Of a stretch of 47,084 nucleotides of DNA, positions 12,983-27,981 are shown one piece after another. The stretch lies in NCBI GenBank assembly GCA_035541015.1, contig DATLFM010000008.1, positions 1-47,084 on the forward strand. Reading direction: 5' to 3'. The stretch's first letter is position 1, and the number at the start of each line of letters is the position of its first letter. A program made the position numbers and the translations under genes. The DNA comes from Candidatus Thermoplasmatota archaeon. Lineage in GTDB: Archaea > Thermoplasmatota > SW-10-69-26 > JACQPN01 > JAIVGT01. The notes under the pieces were generated by a model. It searched no databases. It was given only the letters and a program-made list of their open reading frames with translations, and was not told the origin of the DNA.

Positions 12983-13132
12983 GAACGAGGACGGGGGGCC
13001 GTGGGCCCCGCCAAGCGCCGTCCACAGGCCCCTCCACCCGGCGTGGATACGACCTCGCGAAACCGGGGGCGCGTGGACGACGACTGTTGGGAAAGTTTCT
13101 TGCTCTACAAGAGGCCCTGCGGAGAGGCTCCC

Positions 13133-14596
13133 ATGGTCCGCGCCCTCGTCCTCGCTTGCGTGCTTGCCGCTTCCGCGCTTGGCGGTTGCCTGGGCTCGAT
13201 CGAGGAGCCGTTGGCCCCCTCGCACGACGCTCCCGTCGCGGCGCCGCCTGCGCGCACGCACGTGCTCGAGGGCGCCGTCGAGCCGGCGGAGTTCCTCGCG
13301 CCGACCTTCCGACTCCTTGGCAGCGTCGCCCGCGGCGGCGCCGTGCTCGCGTTGGGGGAGCCAAGCGTCTGGGCGCACCTCGACGGCACGTTGTACGTGA
13401 CGTTCCCCGGGTGCGAGGATCCCCTGTGGGCCGCCCGCTTCTTCGCCGGTTGCGAGCACGGCCCCGTGTACCGAAGCGACGACGGCGGCGAACGCTTCGT
13501 GCGCCTGAATTCCGCGCCCGGCGGGCGCCTTACGGCGGATTCGCCCGCGGCAAATGGGGACGCGGACGTCGCCGTGGACGCGGCGGGAACCGTCTACGCG
13601 AGCAATCTTGGAGCGCGCGGGATCCAGGTGTTCCGCTCGGACGACCGCGGCCAGACGTGGAGCTATCTTGGCAACGCGACGCCCGCACGCCACTGGGCCG
13701 ACCGCCAGTGGATGGCCGCCGGTGCCCCCGGGCACCTCATCGTGGCATGGATGGGTGGAGCGCAAAGCAGCCATCGGGCGGTCGCCGTGAACACCACCTT
13801 CGACGGCGGCGAGAGCTGGACGGGCACGACCTATCTTGGCGACCGGATCGGTTGGCTGGGAAGCGTGCAGTTCGACCCGTCCGGCACGAAAGCGTTCGTT
13901 CCCTTCACGGAAGGCCTGGACGCCGACCTCACGCGCTTGGCAGGCCAGCGGGACATGAGCCTTCGGGTCGCGCGCACGCTCGACGGCGGGCGCTCGTGGG
14001 ACGTCGTGGACACGGGAGTCGTCGTCCGCACGACGGCGACGGGCCTCCACTGGTCGGGCGTGCACATGGCCCCCTCACTTGACGTCACGGGCGACGGCAC
14101 GATCGTGCTGGCCTGGTCGCAGGACGAGCCCGACCCGACGGGCGCCACAAGCGTGGGCGCCAAGGTGCGGTACGTCACGAGCCGCGACGATGGCGTCAAC
14201 TGGAGCCCACCTGCGGTCGCAAGCGACCGCGCGTCGGCGATCATGCCCTGGGTGACCGGCGGTGCCGGCGATCGCTTCGCCATCGTCTACTACGTCACCG
14301 ACTCGCCGCTTGACACCGACTACGGCGGCACGGTCTGGGACGTCGTCGCCACCTACGTGGACGGCGCGTCCATGCACCACGCGATCGTGGAGGCCGCGGT
14401 GCACGTCGGCGGCATCTGCTCGCGCGGAGGCCTTTGCCTCCTCACGGCTTCCGACCGCTCGCTTCTCGACTTCTTCGAAGCCGACCTTCTGCCCGACGGG
14501 CGCCTGTTTGTGACCTACGCGAAGGACACGCAGAAGCTCATCGAGATCCGCGTGGCCGTGCAGGACGGCGGCACGGGCCTCTTGGCGCGTCCCTAG
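13133..14596 (+). CDS. Lipoprotein with BNR/Asp-box beta-propeller
   Basis: A 487-residue exported lipoprotein: hydrophobic signal with lipobox ALGGC (Cys19), then a linker and a propeller. At least five Asp-box type motifs (S/T-x-D-x-G-x-x-W/F) are visible: SDDGGERF, SDDRGQTW, TFDGGESW, TLDGGRSW and SRDDGVNW. They place it in the sialidase/BNR superfamily fold. The sialidase catalytic residues cannot be confirmed by eye, so glycan binding or scaffolding is as likely as hydrolysis. The ATG at 13133 is preceded by GGAGAGG; an upstream in-frame extension lacks a signal peptide. It follows the regulator gene by 150 nt and may have its own promoter. Confidence 0.8.
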   Translation: MVRALVLACVLAASALGGCLGSIEEPLAPSHDAPVAAPPARTHVLEGAVEPAEFLAPTFRLLGSVARGGAVLALGEPSVWAHLDGTLYVTFPGCEDPLWAARFFAGCEHGPVYRSDDGGERFVRLNSAPGGRLTADSPAANGDADVAVDAAGTVYASNLGARGIQVFRSDDRGQTWSYLGNATPARHWADRQWMAAGAPGHLIVAWMGGAQSSHRAVAVNTTFDGGESWTGTTYLGDRIGWLGSVQFDPSGTKAFVPFTEGLDADLTRLAGQRDMSLRVARTLDGGRSWDVVDTGVVVRTTATGLHWSGVHMAPSLDVTGDGTIVLAWSQDEPDPTGATSVGAKVRYVTSRDDGVNWSPPAVASDRASAIMPWVTGGAGDRFAIVYYVTDSPLDTDYGGTVWDVVATYVDGASMHHAIVEAAVHVGGICSRGGLCLLTASDRSLLDFFEADLLPDGRLFVTYAKDTQKLIEIRVAVQDGGTGLLARP

Positions 14597-18850: not shown

Positions 18851-20566
18851 ATGGCCCTGCTCGCGAAGGAGCCGCGCATGGCGGGTCGGCACGGCGCGTG
18901 CGCAACGGGGCGGATCGTGGCCTCGCCTTTGGCGGCCTGGACGGCGCTTGTGCTCCTGGCGCCCGTCGTGGCCTCGATGCCGCTGCCCGAGCTGCCCTCG
19001 CTTGTCCTCGATCCGACGCCGTCGCCGCGCGGTTTGGACGCTGACCAGGACGTTTCGTATTCGGTGACCTTCGATTGCCCCGCGCCGCTTCCGGTCGTGC
19101 CAAGCGGCTGCCCCATGCGCGTGCACGATCCGGCGTGGGGCTGGCTTCATGGCAACCCCGGCTTCGTGGCCGACCCGCAGGACCCCAATCGGATGGCGTT
19201 TGCGATCATCCACGGGAGCCGCGAGGACGGTCCCACGCCCATCGCCCGAGGCTCCAGCATCCCCCACTCGACCTTCACCACCTTCAACGGCGGCGCGTCG
19301 TGGCAGGACCAGTACTACGGTTCGCCGAAGGCCGACCGCGGGGACCGGCATCTTGGCGTGGACATCCACGCGACGCTCGATGGCGACCGCAACCTCGTCC
19401 TCTCGCCACTGTACGCGTACGCGGACGGCGGCGGTTGGCGCTACTACCTGCTGACGTTCCTGTTCGGCCCGGAGGAGCGGCGGCTGGACTACGGCAACCC
19501 GACGGGGCACTTCGAGCCGGAGAAGGGCGCCGTGATGGGGGCTCCAGCGCTCGTGTACGTGCCCCAGATCGCGTCCACCGTGCTGCTGTGGCACGAACGG
19601 GCGAGCCCCGAGGCGCCGCTTATGCTCAAAGGCGCCGTCTCCCGCGACGGCTCGCTTGGCGAGTGGACGGCCTTCAACGGTTCCGTCGGCCCTTGCCGCG
19701 ACGCCTCGCTTCCAGCAAGCCTCGCCGGCCTCCTCTACGTCGCTTGCGTCGGAACGGGCGAGGGCGACGCGCCCGAGGGACGCATCGACGTTCTCGGGCT
19801 CGACCCGCAGACCGGCGCGCTGCGATCGCGGACGGCCACGCCCCTCTCGGGCGGACGACCGGTCCTTGCCGCCATGGGCGAGGACCGGCTCGCCGTCGTC
19901 ACCGTGGACGTGCCCTCGCCGGGAAGCGCGCGCGTCGAGCTTGCAACGGGGCCGCCGGAAGGCCCCTGGCGGGGGCCGCACGCGATCGAGGGACTGAACG
20001 ACCCCTCGCGCAGGCTCACGGTCGCCCGCGTGCAGGCGATCCTCCACCGCGCCGAGACCGACACGATCCATTTTGTCTTCCTCGACGGCACGGACGACGC
20101 GCGCGGGGGGCCTCCCAACCCAAACGGCGCCCCGGTCACGCTCACCGCGCCCATGTGGCGCAAGGCGTTCGTCGTGGCGGAGCCGACGGGCCGCGTGCTG
20201 TTCCGGGTCGATCTTGGCGTCTCCGACAAGGGGGAGAACTCGTTCCCCACCGATTGGGGCGGCGACCAGCGGTTCTTCGGCGACACGCGGGACACGCTTG
20301 CCGACTTCGGCGGGACGGAGTACCTCGCCTTTGGCGACTACGGAGTCATCGTCATGGCGCGCGTGATCGAGCACGACCAGCGTCCGTTCGCGATCGCGCT
20401 GTCGAGCGCGCCGCCGGCCGCCGAAGCCCTGCCCGCGGCGGAAGCCGTCGTGAGCACCGTGCACGCGGGTGCCGGGGTCGTCGCCGGCACGGTGGCAAGC
20501 GTGGCCATTTGGCGGCTGGCGGCTCAGCGCCAGGCGGCGGGCGCGGGCCGGCGCCGCCGGCCCTGA
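18851..20566 (+). CDS. Secreted propeller-like protein with C-terminal anchor (paralogue A)
   Basis: A 571-residue exported protein. Signal sequence about 15-43; predicted beta-propeller body about 60-515; C-terminal hydrophobic helix about 537-560 with a basic tail, so it is likely tethered to the membrane facing outward. It shares an N-terminal block with the proteins at 22482 and 24350: FDCP, then CPMRV, a Gly-Asn-Pro, DPQDPN and DGPTP followed by SxxxHxTFT. An Asp-box-like FNGGASW is present. Function unknown; possibly a surface binding or sensing protein. The ATG at 18851 is used; ATG at 18878 is a second option. It ends 56 nt before the hydrolase gene on the same strand. Confidence 0.7.
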
Positions 20567-20622: not shown

Positions 20623-22485
20623 ATGTCGACGGGTGGGAAGGCGCCCTGGCGCGCGGTTGCGGCACTCCTGGTTCTCCTGGCCGCTCCGGTCCTTTCCGGC
20701 TGCCTTGGAACCGAGTTGAAGGACTCCCTCGAGTTTTTCGTCTACGAGCCCCTGCCGCCCAAGCCCGAGCCCATCGCCGAGAACCTCACCTCAAGCGGCC
20801 TCTCGGCCCGCCTGGAGAACGTCACGGTCGGGTGGCTCAATCTCACGATCCCGTCCTTTGACGCGACGCCGCTTGCGCTCGACCTCTGGCGTCCCGAGAT
20901 CGACCGGCCCGTGCCCACGATCCTGATCGTTTCGCCCTACTTCGAGGATTCGAAGGACCCCGAGAACAACAACACGCCCCGAGGCGGGCTCTACGCGCAG
21001 ACGCTGCGCTACTTCGCGCCGCGCGGCTACGCCGTCGCGCTCGCCGACCTTCGCGGAACGCGCCTCTCCGGCGGATGCCTCGATCTTGGCGGCCCCGGCG
21101 AGCAGGGCGACGCGGCCGCGCTCGTCGAGTATCTTGCCACGCAACCCTGGAGCAACGGCAAGGTCGGCATGATCGGCGGAAGCTACGACGGTTGGACGCA
21201 GCAGATGGCCGCCGTCTCGAAGTCGCCGTACCTCGCCGCGATCGTCCCCATCGCGCCCATCGCCGACGTGTACCACGGCGTGGGCAAGGGCGGCGCCAAG
21301 TTCGCCGGGTGGACGCCGGGCATGTCGATGGGCTACAGCTTCAACTACGGCCTTGGCATCCCCTCGCCGCTGCAGATCGTTTCGAACCCGACGAGCGTCC
21401 TTGGCGTGAATTGGGCGCAGTTCCTCACGGGCCACGAGGGCCAACACCTGCCCTCGCAGACGTGCGCCGTCGAGAACCAGGTGTGGGCCAACGACCCCTC
21501 GGGCGACTACAACGGCTGGTTCACGGTCCGCGACCTGCGCGAGCGCGCGAAGGACGCCACGGCGGCCATGTTCTACACGCACGGCTTCTACGACATCAAC
21601 GCGCGGCCCGACCACATCGACCCGTGGTACGCGGGCTACGGCGGGCCCAAGCGCGCCTTCCTCTATCAGGCGGACCACTTCATGGGGACCGATGCGCCCG
21701 GCACGGGCCGCACGGACTGGTGGGAGGAGGTCCACCGCTGGTTCGACTTCCATCTCCTTGCGATCCCCAATGGCGCCGATGCGACCTACAACCTCATCGA
21801 GGTGCAGGACAACCTCGGCCGCTGGCGGCACGAGACCGCCTGGCCGCCGGCGGACGCCACGCCCGTCGCCTTCCACCTTGGCGACCGCACGCTCTCCCGC
21901 GAGCCTGCCGCGGCCGGCACGGCGATCTTCCGCGAGGACCCCTTCGAGGACGCCGGCGAGATCGGGACGCGAAGCTCGCGCGTCATGGACGGCGCGGGGC
22001 CGGCACGGCTTGTTTTCGCCTCCGAGCCCCTTGCCGAGGCCGTGCACTACGCGGGCCGGCCCGTCGCGTCGGTGCTCGTTTCGTCGGACAAGGCCAACAC
22101 GAACGTGGTGGCGCGCCTGTACGACATCCACCCGGACGGCTCGTGGGTGCTCGTCAACAAGGGCGTGCACACGATCCGCCACCGCGACGGGCTCGACAAG
22201 CCCAGCCACGGCACGCCGGGTACCCCGTACAAGGTGCCCGTGTCCATGCAGCCCGAGGACTACGTGTTCCGGGCGGGCCACGCGATCGGCCTTGCGATCT
22301 CCGCGAGCGACGCGTCGTACGTGCTGCCCACGGGCGCGATGCCGCAGAACACGATTCACTATGGCGGCGCGGAAGGAAGCGCGCTCCTCCTTCCCGCGGT
22401 CGAGCGGACGGACTTCACGATGCGAACCTGGGGTTCCGCACAACCCACGTGGCTTGGACCTAAGCCGGGGGAGGCGTTCCCGTGA
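20623..22485 (+). CDS. S15/CocE-family lipoprotein hydrolase (X-Pro dipeptidyl-peptidase-like)
   Basis: A 620-residue lipoprotein of the alpha/beta-hydrolase S15 family. Signal with lipobox VLSGC (Cys27). The catalytic domain (about 60-380) shows the nucleophile in GGSYDGW (about 189), the acid in [11 protein letters not shown] (about 322) and the catalytic His in ADHFMGT (about 351). The C-terminal domain (about 390-610) is the jelly-roll typical of X-Pro dipeptidyl-peptidases and CocE esterases. It probably acts outside the cell on proline-containing peptides or esters; the exact substrate is not readable. The ATG at 20623 is preceded by CCATAACC about 35 nt upstream, a possible own promoter. 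Its stop overlaps the next gene by 4 nt (GTGA). Confidence 0.85.
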
Positions 22486-24353
22486 AGCGTTTCCTTCCCG
22501 CCGCCTTGCTTCTTCCCCTGCTGCTGGCCGCGGCTCCCGAGGCCATGGCTCACGCCGGCCACCTTCACATCCTGGAGGAGCCCTCGAAGCTCACGCCGCT
22601 CTCCGTCCGTCACGGCGCCCTCGACGCGGCAGCCGAGCTCGCAGGAGGCGTCGTTCCGCAACGGGGCGACCCGCGGCTTGCGCCCGTCACGGCCGGTTCC
22701 TACTCGATTCAATTCCAATGCCCGCCGCCGGTCCTGGATTTCTCGGACCCGCCCTGTCCCCTGCGGATCATCGACGTGGACGATCTTCTGGGCAACCCCA
22801 CGGTCGCCGTAAGCCCGCTCAATCCCAACGACATCATCCTCTCGAGCCTCCACGGGACCCTGCAGGACGGCCCCACGGCCCGCTCCCGCGGTCGGCAGAC
22901 GCACACCACCTTCACCCACTCGGCCGTCCCCATCTCGACCTCGCTTGGAGGCGTGCTCTCGGCGGGGCAGGACTGGCAGGACCAGCCGTACTTCCCGCCC
23001 GACGAGATCGACGACGGCCGCGGCGCCGTGTACGGCGAGGACGTCCACGCCATCATGAACGAGATCGGCAACATCTACATCGCCTCGCTGTACTCGAAGA
23101 AGACGGGCGCCGATTGGCAGTACTACATCGCGAACTGGAAGTTCGATCCCGACCTTGGCATCGCACTCAACTACGCCTTCCCAAACGGCGTCTTCACCTC
23201 CACCGTGCCCGGCCGCGCCATCGACCGCGTGTGGCTTGCGGCGCTGCCCGCCTCCGCGAACGTGGCGCTGTTCTGGGAGGAGCGGGAGCCCGCGCTTGAC
23301 GTGCCGACCGAGCCGCCCGCGGACGAGCCGCCGTCGGGCAACGAGTCCTCCAACCAGAGCGCGCCCCCGCCGCGAGACCGTCGCGCCACGTTCCTCGACG
23401 AGGTTCGCGGGCCGCGCTTCCTCGTTGGCGCCATCACGCCCAACGACCTCGTCTCCGGCTGGAAGCTTCTCAACGCGAGCCTCGCGGTGGGCCCCTGCGC
23501 GAGCATGAGCAACGCCGCCTCCTACGCGGACAAGGTCTACGTGGCCTGCACGCTTGCCGGGCCCGCCCCCGGCTTCCCGCACGGCAAGGAGGGCGACGTC
23601 GTCGTGTACGAGATCGACCCCGTGCGCGGCGTCCGTCGCGCGCTCACGAAGGCGCCCGTTCCCGACGGGCAGCTCACGCTCTCCGTGAGCCAGACGGGCC
23701 GCATGGCGATCGCCTCCGTGCAGACGCGAGACGGGACCGTCGCCGCCCAGCTTGCGACGGGCCCCGTCGAAGGCAGCTTCGGTCGCGCGTACGAGTTCGC
23801 CGAGCGCATCCGAGACCCGCTTCTTCCAGCGGCCAACGCGCGCGTGAACTCCATGCTCTACCGGTCCGTGACGAACACGATCCACCTGCTCTGGATCGAG
23901 GAGTCCGGCGACGGCGAGGCCGCGCGCAAGACCGCCCACTGGCGCAAGGCGCTTGTCGTCCTGGATCCCTTGGCCACGCCGCTTGTCAACCTCGATCTCG
24001 ACGTCCGCGACCGGGGCGAGGTGTTCCGTTTCGACGACCCGCCGCGCAACACGGGCGCCTACGCGGACACGCGCGACAGCCTGATCGAGGTGGAAGGCCG
24101 CGAATTCATGGTCTTCACGGACTACTCGATCTTCGTCTTCGCCGAGATCCTCGAGCTCGACGAGCGCGAGGACGCGATCGTCTTCCACGAGACGCCGCCC
24201 GTCCCCGAGGCCGTGCCGGTGGCCGAGGTCGCCCCGGCGCTCGTGAACGTGGGTGCCGGCGTCGTGGCCGCGGCCGTCTCGGCCGAAGCCCTGCGCCGCC
24301 TGTTGGCCGCGCGCCTTGCCGCCGGCGCGGGGCCCGGGAGGCGACGGCGATGA
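22482..24353 (+). CDS. Secreted propeller-like protein with C-terminal anchor (paralogue B)
   Basis: A 623-residue exported protein. Signal peptide [10 protein letters not shown] onward, about 1-23; body about 65-575; C-terminal hydrophobic helix about 588-610, then an Arg-rich tail. It shares with paralogue A the block FQCP, PPCPLRI, LGNP, SPLNPND and DGPTA, then HTTFT. A Pro/Glu/Ser/Asn insert (about 268-305) with NESSNQS is a likely exposed and glycosylatable loop. Function unknown. The start is GTG at 22482, overlapping the hydrolase stop as GTGA; its own stop overlaps the next ATG as ATGA. This indicates tight translational coupling. Confidence 0.72.
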   Translation: MKRFLPAALLLPLLLAAAPEAMAHAGHLHILEEPSKLTPLSVRHGALDAAAELAGGVVPQRGDPRLAPVTAGSYSIQFQCPPPVLDFSDPPCPLRIIDVDDLLGNPTVAVSPLNPNDIILSSLHGTLQDGPTARSRGRQTHTTFTHSAVPISTSLGGVLSAGQDWQDQPYFPPDEIDDGRGAVYGEDVHAIMNEIGNIYIASLYSKKTGADWQYYIANWKFDPDLGIALNYAFPNGVFTSTVPGRAIDRVWLAALPASANVALFWEEREPALDVPTEPPADEPPSGNESSNQSAPPPRDRRATFLDEVRGPRFLVGAITPNDLVSGWKLLNASLAVGPCASMSNAASYADKVYVACTLAGPAPGFPHGKEGDVVVYEIDPVRGVRRALTKAPVPDGQLTLSVSQTGRMAIASVQTRDGTVAAQLATGPVEGSFGRAYEFAERIRDPLLPAANARVNSMLYRSVTNTIHLLWIEESGDGEAARKTAHWRKALVVLDPLATPLVNLDLDVRDRGEVFRFDDPPRNTGAYADTRDSLIEVEGREFMVFTDYSIFVFAEILELDEREDAIVFHETPPVPEAVPVAEVAPALVNVGAGVVAAAVSAEALRRLLAARLAAGAGPGRRRR

Positions 24354-26032
24354 AGGCGATCCTCCTTGCCGTCCTGGCGCTCGCGCCCGCGGCCGCCGCC
24401 TTGCCCGCGCCCCTGCCACTTTCCCTCGATTCGGCCCCGGAGACGGGCGCCGCGCACGGCTTCCCGCCCAGCGGGGAAGTGGACGAGACGTCCCGCGGGT
24501 ACCGTCTCGACTTCGACTGCCCAAGCTCGGGCCCGTTTGCGCCGCCCTGCCCCACGCGCGTGGCCGACGGCGCGCACGTCTTTGGGGCGCCCGCGCTTGC
24601 CGTGAACCCCTCAAACCCGCGGCACGTCGCGATCGCCGCGCTTGCCGGCACGCTTGCCGGAAGCCCCACGCCGGCCAGCCGCGCCGGCACGCCCCACGCG
24701 CTCCTCGTTTCCGAAGACGGCGGGCTCACCTTCGCTACGACGCCCATCCCCGCGCCCCAAGACGATCTTCTGGGCGAGGAGGTGGCCCTTGTCGCCGACG
24801 ACGAGGGGAACCTCGTGCTCGCCGCGCTGTGGTCCCGCCGCGGAGAGACCGGCCCCACGGTGCTTGGCGTCTGGAAGCTTGGCCCGTTCCCGGGAACCGC
24901 CGCCCTGGCAAGTCCCCCGGCGATCCTCGCCCCATGGACCGAGGGGGCCGTCCTCTCCCGCATCTCCCTGTCCCTCGACGACGGGACGGTCTTCCTCGCC
25001 TGGCAGGAGCACGGCCTTGCCCGGGACGCGCGCTCCGCCCACGGGCCCTCCGGATTCGTCGACGTCGCATGGTCGACGGCCGATCCGGCCGCCCCCTGGC
25101 AGCGGCTTTCGGACGAGCACGTCATGGGCCCCTGCGCGGCCGCGAGCAACGCGCACCCGCACCGCGGGCTCCTGTTCGTCGCCTGCACGGCGCAGCCGGG
25201 CCTCGAGGGCGAGCGGCTCGAGATCGGCGACATCGCCATCCTCGCGCTCGATCCCGCCGCCGGCAACACGAGCTACCGCGGACGACTGCCCTTCGCAGGC
25301 GACCTCTTCCTCCTCCCCGCCGACAACGACCGCCTGGGCCTCCTTGCCTTCGAGCAGCGCGCGGGCGACCGCGTCCGCGCCGTCTTCACGGTGAGCAAGG
25401 ACGGCAGCACCTGGTCGAGCGCGCGCGACTTCGGCCGCGCGCTGCGCGAGCCCACCGACCCGCCCGCGCGCGAGGCGCGCATCCTCGCCGTCACGCGGCA
25501 GGCCACGAGCGACACGTACCACGTGATCTACCAGGAGATCCCCGTCGCCAACCAGAGCGACCCCAACCAGGGGACGCCGCTTGCCGAGCTTGCGCCGCGC
25601 GTGCGCAAGCAGCTCTTCGCCTTTGCCGGGTCGGGCGAGCTTGCGTACCGCCGCGACCTAGCCGTGGACCTTCCCGAGAACCGCATGCGCCGCGACCCCG
25701 TTCACGGCGCGTTCAACGAGAGCTTCGCGCAGGACCGCGCGGACGCCATCGTCCTCTTCGGCTCGCGCGAATTCGTCGCGTACTCCGACGCGGGCTCGCT
25801 CGTCGTGGGGGAGCTTCGCGAGACCGTCTCGGTTCCCCTGGGACCCTCGCCCGTTCCGCTTACGCCCTCGAAGACCGAAACCGCCATCACGCAGCCGCCC
25901 AAGCGCGAGTTCACGCTTCCGTTCCTCCTCGTCGGCGGCGCGCTTGGCGCTGCCATCGTGGCCCGCGTGCTCGTGGGCCGCGTCAAGGTGACGACGAAGG
26001 AACTTCCAGCTCCAGGAGAGAAGAAGCCATGA
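24350..26032 (+). CDS. Secreted propeller-like protein with C-terminal anchor (paralogue C)
   Basis: A 560-residue exported protein. Signal peptide about 1-18; body about 40-500; C-terminal membrane helix about 523-545 (FLLVGGALGAAIVARVL) with a Lys-rich tail. It has the shared N-terminal block in a shorter form (FDCP, PPCPTRV, NPSNPRH, SPTPASRAGTPH) and an Asp-box-like SEDGGLTF. It is closest to paralogue B, next to which it probably arose by duplication. ATG at 24350 overlaps the upstream stop; its TGA at 26030-26032 overlaps the ATG of the LonB-like gene. Function unknown. Confidence 0.72.
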   Translation: MKAILLAVLALAPAAAALPAPLPLSLDSAPETGAAHGFPPSGEVDETSRGYRLDFDCPSSGPFAPPCPTRVADGAHVFGAPALAVNPSNPRHVAIAALAGTLAGSPTPASRAGTPHALLVSEDGGLTFATTPIPAPQDDLLGEEVALVADDEGNLVLAALWSRRGETGPTVLGVWKLGPFPGTAALASPPAILAPWTEGAVLSRISLSLDDGTVFLAWQEHGLARDARSAHGPSGFVDVAWSTADPAAPWQRLSDEHVMGPCAAASNAHPHRGLLFVACTAQPGLEGERLEIGDIAILALDPAAGNTSYRGRLPFAGDLFLLPADNDRLGLLAFEQRAGDRVRAVFTVSKDGSTWSSARDFGRALREPTDPPAREARILAVTRQATSDTYHVIYQEIPVANQSDPNQGTPLAELAPRVRKQLFAFAGSGELAYRRDLAVDLPENRMRRDPVHGAFNESFAQDRADAIVLFGSREFVAYSDAGSLVVGELRETVSVPLGPSPVPLTPSKTETAITQPPKREFTLPFLLVGGALGAAIVARVLVGRVKVTTKELPAPGEKKP

Positions 26033-27981
26033 CGTCCAGCCGCCCGTCCGAGCCCATCGAAACGAGAACGCCCGACCAGTGGATCCGCGACGAAGGCGTC
26101 GAGACGACGGCCTCCGTCGAAGTGCCCGCGCGCCTCATCGACCAGGTCATCGGGCAGGACCAGGCCGTGGAAGTCGCGATCAAGGCGGCCACGCAGAAGC
26201 GCCACCTCCTGCTCATCGGCGACCCCGGCACGGGCAAGTCCATGATCGCAAAGGCGATGACCGAGCTTCTCCCCAGCGAGAAGCAGGACGACCTCCTCGT
26301 CAGCGCCAACCCCAAGGACCCCAACGAGCCCATCGTGAAGGCCGTGCCCGGAGGCGAGGGGCGCCCCTACATCGCCAAGATCCGCCGCTCCGCGCGGTTC
26401 AAGATCTGGGGGCTTCGCGTCGTCGAGTGGGCGCTCGCCTTTGGCATCCTCGCCTTCGGCCTCGTCTTCTTCGTGCTCAAGGACGACTACATGGCCGTGC
26501 TCATCGCGGTGATCGGCGCGCTCTTCTTTGCCATGATCGTCATGCAGTTCCGCGTCAAGGAGGACAACCTCGTCCCGAAGCTTCTCCTTGAGAACGGAGC
26601 AAAGGCCCGCCCGGCGCCCTACGTCGACGCCACGGGCTCGCACGCCGGCGCGCTCTTTGGCGACGTCCGCCACGACCCCTTCCAGTCCGGCGGCCTCGAG
26701 ACGCCTACGCACCAGCGCGTCGAGGTCGGCGCCATCCACCGAGCGCACAAGGGCATCCTGTTCCTCGACGAGATCAACGTCCTGCGCCTCGAGAGCCAGC
26801 AGGCCCTCCTCACGGCCATGCAGGACCGCCAATATCCCATCGTGGGACAAAGCGAGCGGAGCTCGGGCGCCATGGTGCGCACGACGCCCCTTCCCTGCGA
26901 CTTCATCCTCGTGGCCGCAGGCAACCTCGACGCCGTGCGCGTCGCCGAGCCCGGCAGCAACACGGGCATGCACCCGGCGCTGCGCTCGCGCATCCGCGGG
27001 TACGGCTACGAGGTCTACGTGGCAAGCTCCATGGACGACACGAGCGAGAACCGCCGAAAGCTCGTCCGCTTCGTAGCCCAGGAGGTCGTCCGCGACGGCC
27101 GCATCCCCCACTTCGAGGCCGGCGCCGTGGCGCTTGTCATCCGCGAGGCGCAGCGCCGCGCGGGCCGCTCCGGCAAGCTCACGCTACGCCTGCGCGAGCT
27201 TGGCGGCCTCGTCCGCACGGCCGGCGACATCGCGCGCGAGCAGAGCGCCGCGGCCGTCACGGCCGAGCACGTTCGCGCCGCCAAGCGCACCTCACGCTCG
27301 CTCGAGCAGCAGATCGTCGAGCGCGCGCTCGACAAGCAGCGCGCAAGCGACGCCGTGCGCGTCGAGGGCAGCGTGATCGGCGCGGCCGCGGCCCTGGGCT
27401 TCATGGGCGGCGGCGACGTCGGCGAGCCCGCCGGCGTGGTCGTCCCCTGCGAGGCCGCCGTCACGCCCGCGCGCGACCGCAACGCGGGCACCTTCGTCGC
27501 CAACCGCACGCTCCAGGCGGCAAGCCCCACGGCCGCCGAGAACGTCGAGGCCATCGTGAAGACGCTTCGCGGCGAAGCCGTGAAGGACCTCGACGTCCAC
27601 GTGCAGGCCATCGCCACGGGCGAGGGCATCGAGGCCGAGGGCATCGGCCTTGCCGCCGCCGTCGCGGCGATCTCCGCCGTCGAGCGCGTCCCCGTCGACC
27701 AGCGCTACGCCATGGTGGGCACTCTCACCGTGACGGGGGCGCTGCGCTCCGTCGCGGGCGTCACGCAGATGATCGAGGCCGCCGCCGACGCCGGCTACGC
27801 CGGCGTGCTCGTGCCCGAGAACTCGCGCAAGGACGTGCTCCTCGACGAGGCCGACGCCCGCGTCGAGATCCTCTTTGCCGAGAGCCTCACGGACGTGCTC
27901 TTCGAGGTGCTCGACGCGCCCGAGGAGAAGCGCCGCGAGATCTGCGGGCGCCTGGCCGGAGCGATCGTCGTCAAGCGCTGA
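26029..27981 (+). CDS. lonB: LonB-like membrane AAA+ protein with inactive protease domain
   Basis: A 650-residue homologue of archaeal LonB. Walker A GDPGTGKS is at 64-71, Walker B ILFLDE at 243-248. Two membrane helices inserted in the ATPase domain (about 130-150 and 154-173) are the LonB hallmark, and GMHPALRSRIRGYGYEV (313-329) is conserved. The protease domain (about 440-650) aligns without gaps, but the catalytic Ser of the usual GDSAS motif is Gly538 (EAEGIG) and the catalytic Lys of GGVTxK is Met581 (AGVTQM). It should hydrolyse ATP at the membrane but not cleave peptide bonds by the Lon mechanism. ATG at 26029 overlaps the propeller gene stop (ATGA) and follows AGGAGAG. The 3' end overlaps the convergent methyltransferase by 11 nt. 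Confidence 0.9.
   Translation: MTSSRPSEPIETRTPDQWIRDEGVETTASVEVPARLIDQVIGQDQAVEVAIKAATQKRHLLLIGDPGTGKSMIAKAMTELLPSEKQDDLLVSANPKDPNEPIVKAVPGGEGRPYIAKIRRSARFKIWGLRVVEWALAFGILAFGLVFFVLKDDYMAVLIAVIGALFFAMIVMQFRVKEDNLVPKLLLENGAKARPAPYVDATGSHAGALFGDVRHDPFQSGGLETPTHQRVEVGAIHRAHKGILFLDEINVLRLESQQALLTAMQDRQYPIVGQSERSSGAMVRTTPLPCDFILVAAGNLDAVRVAEPGSNTGMHPALRSRIRGYGYEVYVASSMDDTSENRRKLVRFVAQEVVRDGRIPHFEAGAVALVIREAQRRAGRSGKLTLRLRELGGLVRTAGDIAREQSAAAVTAEHVRAAKRTSRSLEQQIVERALDKQRASDAVRVEGSVIGAAAALGFMGGGDVGEPAGVVVPCEAAVTPARDRNAGTFVANRTLQAASPTAAENVEAIVKTLRGEAVKDLDVHVQAIATGEGIEAEGIGLAAAVAAISAVERVPVDQRYAMVGTLTVTGALRSVAGVTQMIEAAADAGYAGVLVPENSRKDVLLDEADARVEILFAESLTDVLFEVLDAPEEKRREICGRLAGAIVVKR

Follow-up and report, generated by a model that had tools for sequence, protein, structure and literature searches.

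Loss of the Ser–Lys dyad abolishes proteolysis by Lon, and the ATPase of AAA+ proteases can run without it. LonB (MEROPS S16, TIGR00764; TonLonB 3k1j, AfLonB 1z0w) may stand in for FtsH, which archaea reportedly lack (PMC4864567). Haloferax volcanii cannot do without it (PMC9263693). Several described proteins combine or separate the two activities in other ways. LonC is a Lon relative in which the protease is alive and ATP-powered unfolding has been lost (PMC3391209), and a methanogen protein, Lon-like-Ms, is reported to be active although a Tyr aligns with its catalytic Ser (PMC4864567). BrxL of BREX systems carries an inactive Lon protease (P) domain behind its AAA+ domain, but it is a DNA-acting MCM-type ATPase with a DNA-binding N-terminus and without the LonB membrane hairpin (PMC12839542). 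RadA/Sms (5lkm) has a Lon-like C-terminal domain in a soluble ATPase of another type that serves DNA repair. In plants, FtsHi1-5 are membrane-bound AAA+ protease paralogs that have kept their ATPase, have lost their protease site and exist beside active paralogs; together with FtsH12 they form a heteromeric membrane motor complex, with a reported role in protein import into chloroplasts (PMC8197885). The open-access literature searched yielded no account of a pseudoprotease clade within LonB, which does not by itself prove that none exists; non-peptidase homologs in MEROPS S16 are mentioned, and such a branch is not described, in the excerpted text of PMC9569914.

Here we describe a LonB homolog without the dyad, hereafter pseudo-LonB, encoded in a 47,084-nucleotide stretch of archaeal DNA (the window) that is contig C8 of a 2.2-Mb genome (G000; 114 contigs, 96% complete). 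A sequence-only reading of this DNA had proposed a LonB homolog with intact ATPase motifs and both catalytic residues replaced, and our analysis bears this out. The open reading frame (Table 1) scores 695.9 bits against the archaeal LonB model TIGR00764 (NCBIfam; cut-off 516.6) and contains the AAA, LonB lid and Lon_C domains of Pfam in the order of a full-length LonB, with the membrane insertion lying between the two Walker motifs. Both of these motifs, the two membrane helices (near residues 128-150 and 152-177 by hydropathy) and the putative arginine-finger region are present as that reading had stated, its residue numbers are right, and VRHDPFQSGG, sensor-1 N299 and the sensor-2 region are likewise intact. 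The ATPase motifs are complete at the sequence level in all seven full-length pseudo-LonBs that we identified (motif inspection). An AlphaFold model built from a two-sequence alignment is poor (mean pLDDT of 39), with a long helix hairpin visible, and we therefore judged the active site by alignment to the crystallized P-domain sequence of AfLonB.

Table 1. Coordinates in the window of the pseudo-LonB gene, its functional regions and the genes upstream.
Feature	Position	Strand	Basis
Further paralog of the exported partner (571 aa), possibly starting farther downstream	18851..20566	+	
S15-family X-Pro dipeptidyl-peptidase/CocE-like hydrolase, 620 aa; lipobox-like LSGC after signal sequence	20623..22485	+	Pfam
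Paralog of the exported partner, 623 aa; 4-nt overlap with next gene	22482..24353	+	
Exported partner, 560 aa: signal peptide, all-beta (model) ectodomain, C-terminal membrane helix 525-543, short basic tail	24350..26032	+	
Pseudo-LonB, 650 aa: membrane hairpin inserted in the AAA+ module, inactive Lon protease domain	26029..27981	+	Open ORF, domain matches, dyad loss
Walker A GDPGTGKS, residues 64-71, intact	26218..26241	+	Motif inspection
Two predicted membrane segments, about residues 128-177	26410..26559	+	Hydropathy; long helix hairpin in otherwise poor structure model
Walker B ILFLDEIN, residues 243-250, intact	26755..26778	+	Motif inspection
MHPALRSRIRGYGY, residues 314-327, including arginine-finger candidates, intact	26968..27009	+	Motif inspection
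Inactive Lon protease (P) domain, residues 440-630	27346..27918	+	Domain match, alignment to AfLonB P domain
Gly538 codon, catalytic Ser position	27640..27642	+	Alignment
Met581 codon, catalytic Lys position	27769..27771	+	Alignment

A phmmer comparison with the A. fulgidus LonB P domain (1z0e) aligned the whole domain with one single-residue gap distant from the site, placing EGVEGDSASIS opposite EGIEAEGIGLA and GGVTQKIEAA opposite AGVTQMIEAA. E537-G538 thus occupy the place of the D-S pair and M581 that of the Lys, in exact register. The Ser–Lys spacing characteristic of Lon, 42 residues (PMC9569914), is kept in all 39 aligned proteins, comprising seven pseudo-LonBs and 32 complete LonBs. 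Every complete LonB has the S/K dyad, and the corresponding residues in the pseudo-LonBs are GM, GM, GR, PM, AA, AM and SM, the last being the G151 protein, which retains Ser with Met at the Lys position. Because all seven full-length proteins, from six genomes, lack the dyad, chance or a sequencing effect is excluded. Positions at least 95% conserved among complete LonBs are kept at 92% in the AAA+ part of pseudo-LonB and at 48% in the P domain, with the losses concentrated at the Ser loop (527-542), along the stretch toward the Lys (562-581) and at 491-503. Pseudo-LonB is a LonB by descent that no longer passes the activity-based definition of the protease. Automatic annotation calls for caution here, as the TIGR00764 equivalog labels all pseudo-LonBs 'ATP-dependent protease LonB'.

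To place pseudo-LonB within its family, we began the search with 60 relatives and widened it to 390 genomes from the phylum, plus 80 genomes from a related class. Six of the 390 draft genomes, two of them less than 80% complete, encode seven full-length pseudo-LonBs and one damaged copy (one each in G000, G062, G076 and G151, two in G003, and one full-length and one damaged in G213), a count that may overlook much more diverged members since the window protein was the query. The seven form a single clade apart from their hosts' own LonB (support 100/100), with deep branches that span five families (f1, f3, f31, f32 and f39). Because the same clade is recovered from the AAA+ columns alone (support 100/99), it is not an artifact of shared active-site loss. 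Scores against TIGR00764 do not overlap, running from 632 to 716 bits for pseudo-LonB relatives and from 868 to 933 for complete LonBs in the genomes tested. Pseudo-LonB is therefore a lineage present in several genomes and not a one-off, in strong agreement with the pseudoprotease branch that had been anticipated. The damaged copy belongs to a second exported-protein/pseudo-LonB pair of G213 (G213:C140; L069:5340-7184). Its sequence is disrupted between Walker A and the hairpin, either by an internal deletion that changes the frame or by faulty assembly. A TGA recorded in the G003:C3 match, considered as an in-frame stop, is the ordinary stop codon of the gene.

The precedent of Lon-like-Ms means that alignment alone gives no absolute proof of inactivity, and the Ser kept in G151 could likewise be read as a sign that pseudo-LonB still cleaves peptides, through other residues or a Lys-less Ser mechanism. 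We consider this very improbable. The surroundings of the site (E535, D537, S538, S540, S542 and K581) are mostly lost, and no Ser or Lys shared by at least six of the seven proteins has been gained elsewhere in the P domain, S549 and K511 occurring equally in complete LonBs. Across the clade, no new Ser, Lys, Thr, Cys, His or Asp appears in the P domain relative to complete LonBs; the sole novelty is E475. That the gene is instead a duplicate decaying into a pseudogene, as the damaged G213 copy might suggest, is already contradicted and can carry hardly any weight against seven full-length open frames on deep branches and a conserved operon position. It also conflicts with the conservation of the dead domain. 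When G000 is compared with G003, identity is 72.8% without gaps for the dead P domains and 73.8% for the living ones, and the AAA+ b part is 85.1% identical in pseudo-LonB and 85.2% in complete LonB. Because identity matches in this genome pair, the dead domain is under equal constraint; a domain without any use should diverge more quickly or disappear, so equal conservation points to continuing selection. We used matched identity and did not rely on per-domain dN/dS, because the codon bias of DNA with 70% G+C depresses synonymous estimates.

The gene neighborhood sets pseudo-LonB further apart from archaeal LonB, which it resembles in domain order, hairpin, lid and P-domain sequence but from which it differs in the lost dyad and its surroundings, its deep separate clade and a constant exported partner upstream. 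Pseudo-lonB ends a compact same-strand run in which the genes for the hydrolase, a paralog of the partner, the partner and pseudo-lonB itself overlap by 4 nt each, so that the stop of the partner gene overlaps the pseudo-lonB start. A partner gene lies directly upstream in seven of seven loci (offsets of -4, +1, -4, -4, +6, +2 and +4 nt) and also adjoins the damaged eighth copy, and none of the complete lonBs that we examined has a partner relative directly upstream. Built into a profile, the seven partner sequences match seven of the 390 genomes, namely the six with pseudo-LonB and one with a weak partial match (Fisher p = 1.5e-12 with genomes treated as independent, a value that overstates independence because the six genomes are related). 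As read from gene order, the pairing indicates functional linkage rather than physical contact.

Members of the partner family combine a signal sequence with an ectodomain whose four invariant Cys lie in CP...CP and GPC...C contexts (57, 67, 262 and 279 in the protein encoded directly upstream of pseudo-lonB in the window) and with one C-terminal membrane helix, after which comes a short, mostly basic tail. The family has no match in Pfam, no significant sequence match in the PDB and no member in the phages searched. A structure model of the partner is all-beta (pTM 0.61, mean pLDDT 56), and the best Foldseek hits are mostly sialidase, GH43, GH117 and neuraminidase propellers at TM scores of just 0.2-0.4, with isolated Asp-box-like motifs in the sequence; a beta-propeller is our best current guess for the fold. 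Directly 3' of the G003:C13 pseudo-lonB are genes for a 1,677-aa FG-GAP/PQQ-repeat protein and an exported BNR-repeat protein (L038:7968-13001 and 13003-14547), which extend the theme of surface propellers.

We propose that pseudo-LonB is a membrane-anchored AAA+ motor that uses its protease ring as a scaffold and is dedicated to the surface protein encoded upstream, a reading that we hold to be probable by a modest measure. With the dyad gone, peptide cleavage by the Lon mechanism is not expected. The retained AAA+ ring, pore and membrane hairpin make ATP hydrolysis and pulling of proteins from the cytoplasmic membrane face most likely, and an ATP-driven unfoldase at that face is predicted from the hairpin and from the Walker, sensor, arginine-finger and pore regions, all of them intact. 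The protease ring may act as a hexamer-stabilizing scaffold or as an exit chamber. The membrane protein to which pseudo-LonB is constantly and tightly coupled has both an outside domain and a cytoplasmic tail, which makes it the likeliest client. The two proteins are probably made by coupled translation, and the motor would engage the short tail of the partner and remodel, assemble or extract it without destruction. The unfoldase or chaperone anchored in the membrane that the sequence-only reading had put forward is a candidate function that fits the intact ATPase and the gene neighborhood.

By analogy, our best reading is that pseudo-LonB works most like plant FtsHi, although FtsH belongs to a different family, one of zinc proteases, and pseudo-LonB is linked instead to an exported surface protein. 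The resemblance to other systems is more distant. Pseudo-LonB matches the BrxL model TIGR02653 and RadA/Sms weakly, and LonC presents the reverse case. A broader proposal, which we advance tentatively and regard as close to evenly balanced, is that archaea have a two-gene system in which LonB has turned into a non-proteolytic membrane motor devoted to the assembly or extraction of one family of C-terminally anchored surface proteins, an independent counterpart of FtsHi. If true, this would be a pseudoprotease that arose from LonB, has a defined candidate client and was invented by archaea independently of the plant proteins. In this conserved branch, cutting and motor activity have become separated in nature, and a candidate client can be named; because the cutting site is lost and the motor is kept, the role of the LonB motor beyond proteolysis becomes testable.

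Two other functions have to be weighed against a motor dedicated to its neighbor. Pseudo-LonB could mix into hexamers of complete LonB and tune proteolysis or substrate choice, as FtsHi does with FtsH12. A second, catalytically complete lonB, for which the sequence-only reading had advised a search, is present in this genome on contig C97 (VEGDSAS, GGVTAK; 898 bits). Complete LonB is kept in all four pseudo-LonB genomes that are at least 90% complete, and the AAA+ b parts of the two proteins are about 70% identical, which together with the plant precedent would suit mixed hexamers. However, complete LonB is encoded on a contig other than that of pseudo-lonB in G000, G003, G062 and G076, and it was not found in G151 or G213, genomes that are just 79% and 74% complete. 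Nothing found here points to the regulatory partner of a true LonB that the earlier reading had offered, the constant gene partner being an exported membrane protein and not lonB, and we regard this role as unlikely. Somewhat less likely still is a sensor–effector pair, in which the ectodomain would bind an extracellular ligand and the AAA+ protein, as cytoplasmic responder, would change its ATPase state without the partner being a client. Such a relay is compatible with the single membrane pass of the partner and with its conserved pairing, as well as with the S15 hydrolase, which recurs next to the pair in three of the eight loci (the window, 20623-22485; G003:C3, L037; G213:C97, L048:6494-8653), but domain searches found a signaling domain in neither protein. 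This alternative differs from the motor–client reading mainly in causal direction, which sequence cannot settle; assembly, extraction and signal relay would look the same at that level.

The survey also returned other LonB-related proteins. The third Lon_C match in G000, an exported open reading frame (L002:1318-3261, contig C110), has a lone Lon_C domain (GGPSAG...GGLAPK) without an AAA+ domain. A Thorarchaeota match (L034:5986-7446, JAGSHN010000004.1; matching residues 193-433), considered as a member of the pseudo-LonB clade, proved to be a different, AAA-only relative: a LonB-like AAA+ ATPase of about 490 aa that lacks a protease domain and carries a cysteine-rich, zinc-finger-like insertion. 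Short matches of similar extent turn up across many genomes of the phylum, where the open frames measure about 490-700 aa; proteins of this type are possibly a second, independent protease-less relative of LonB.
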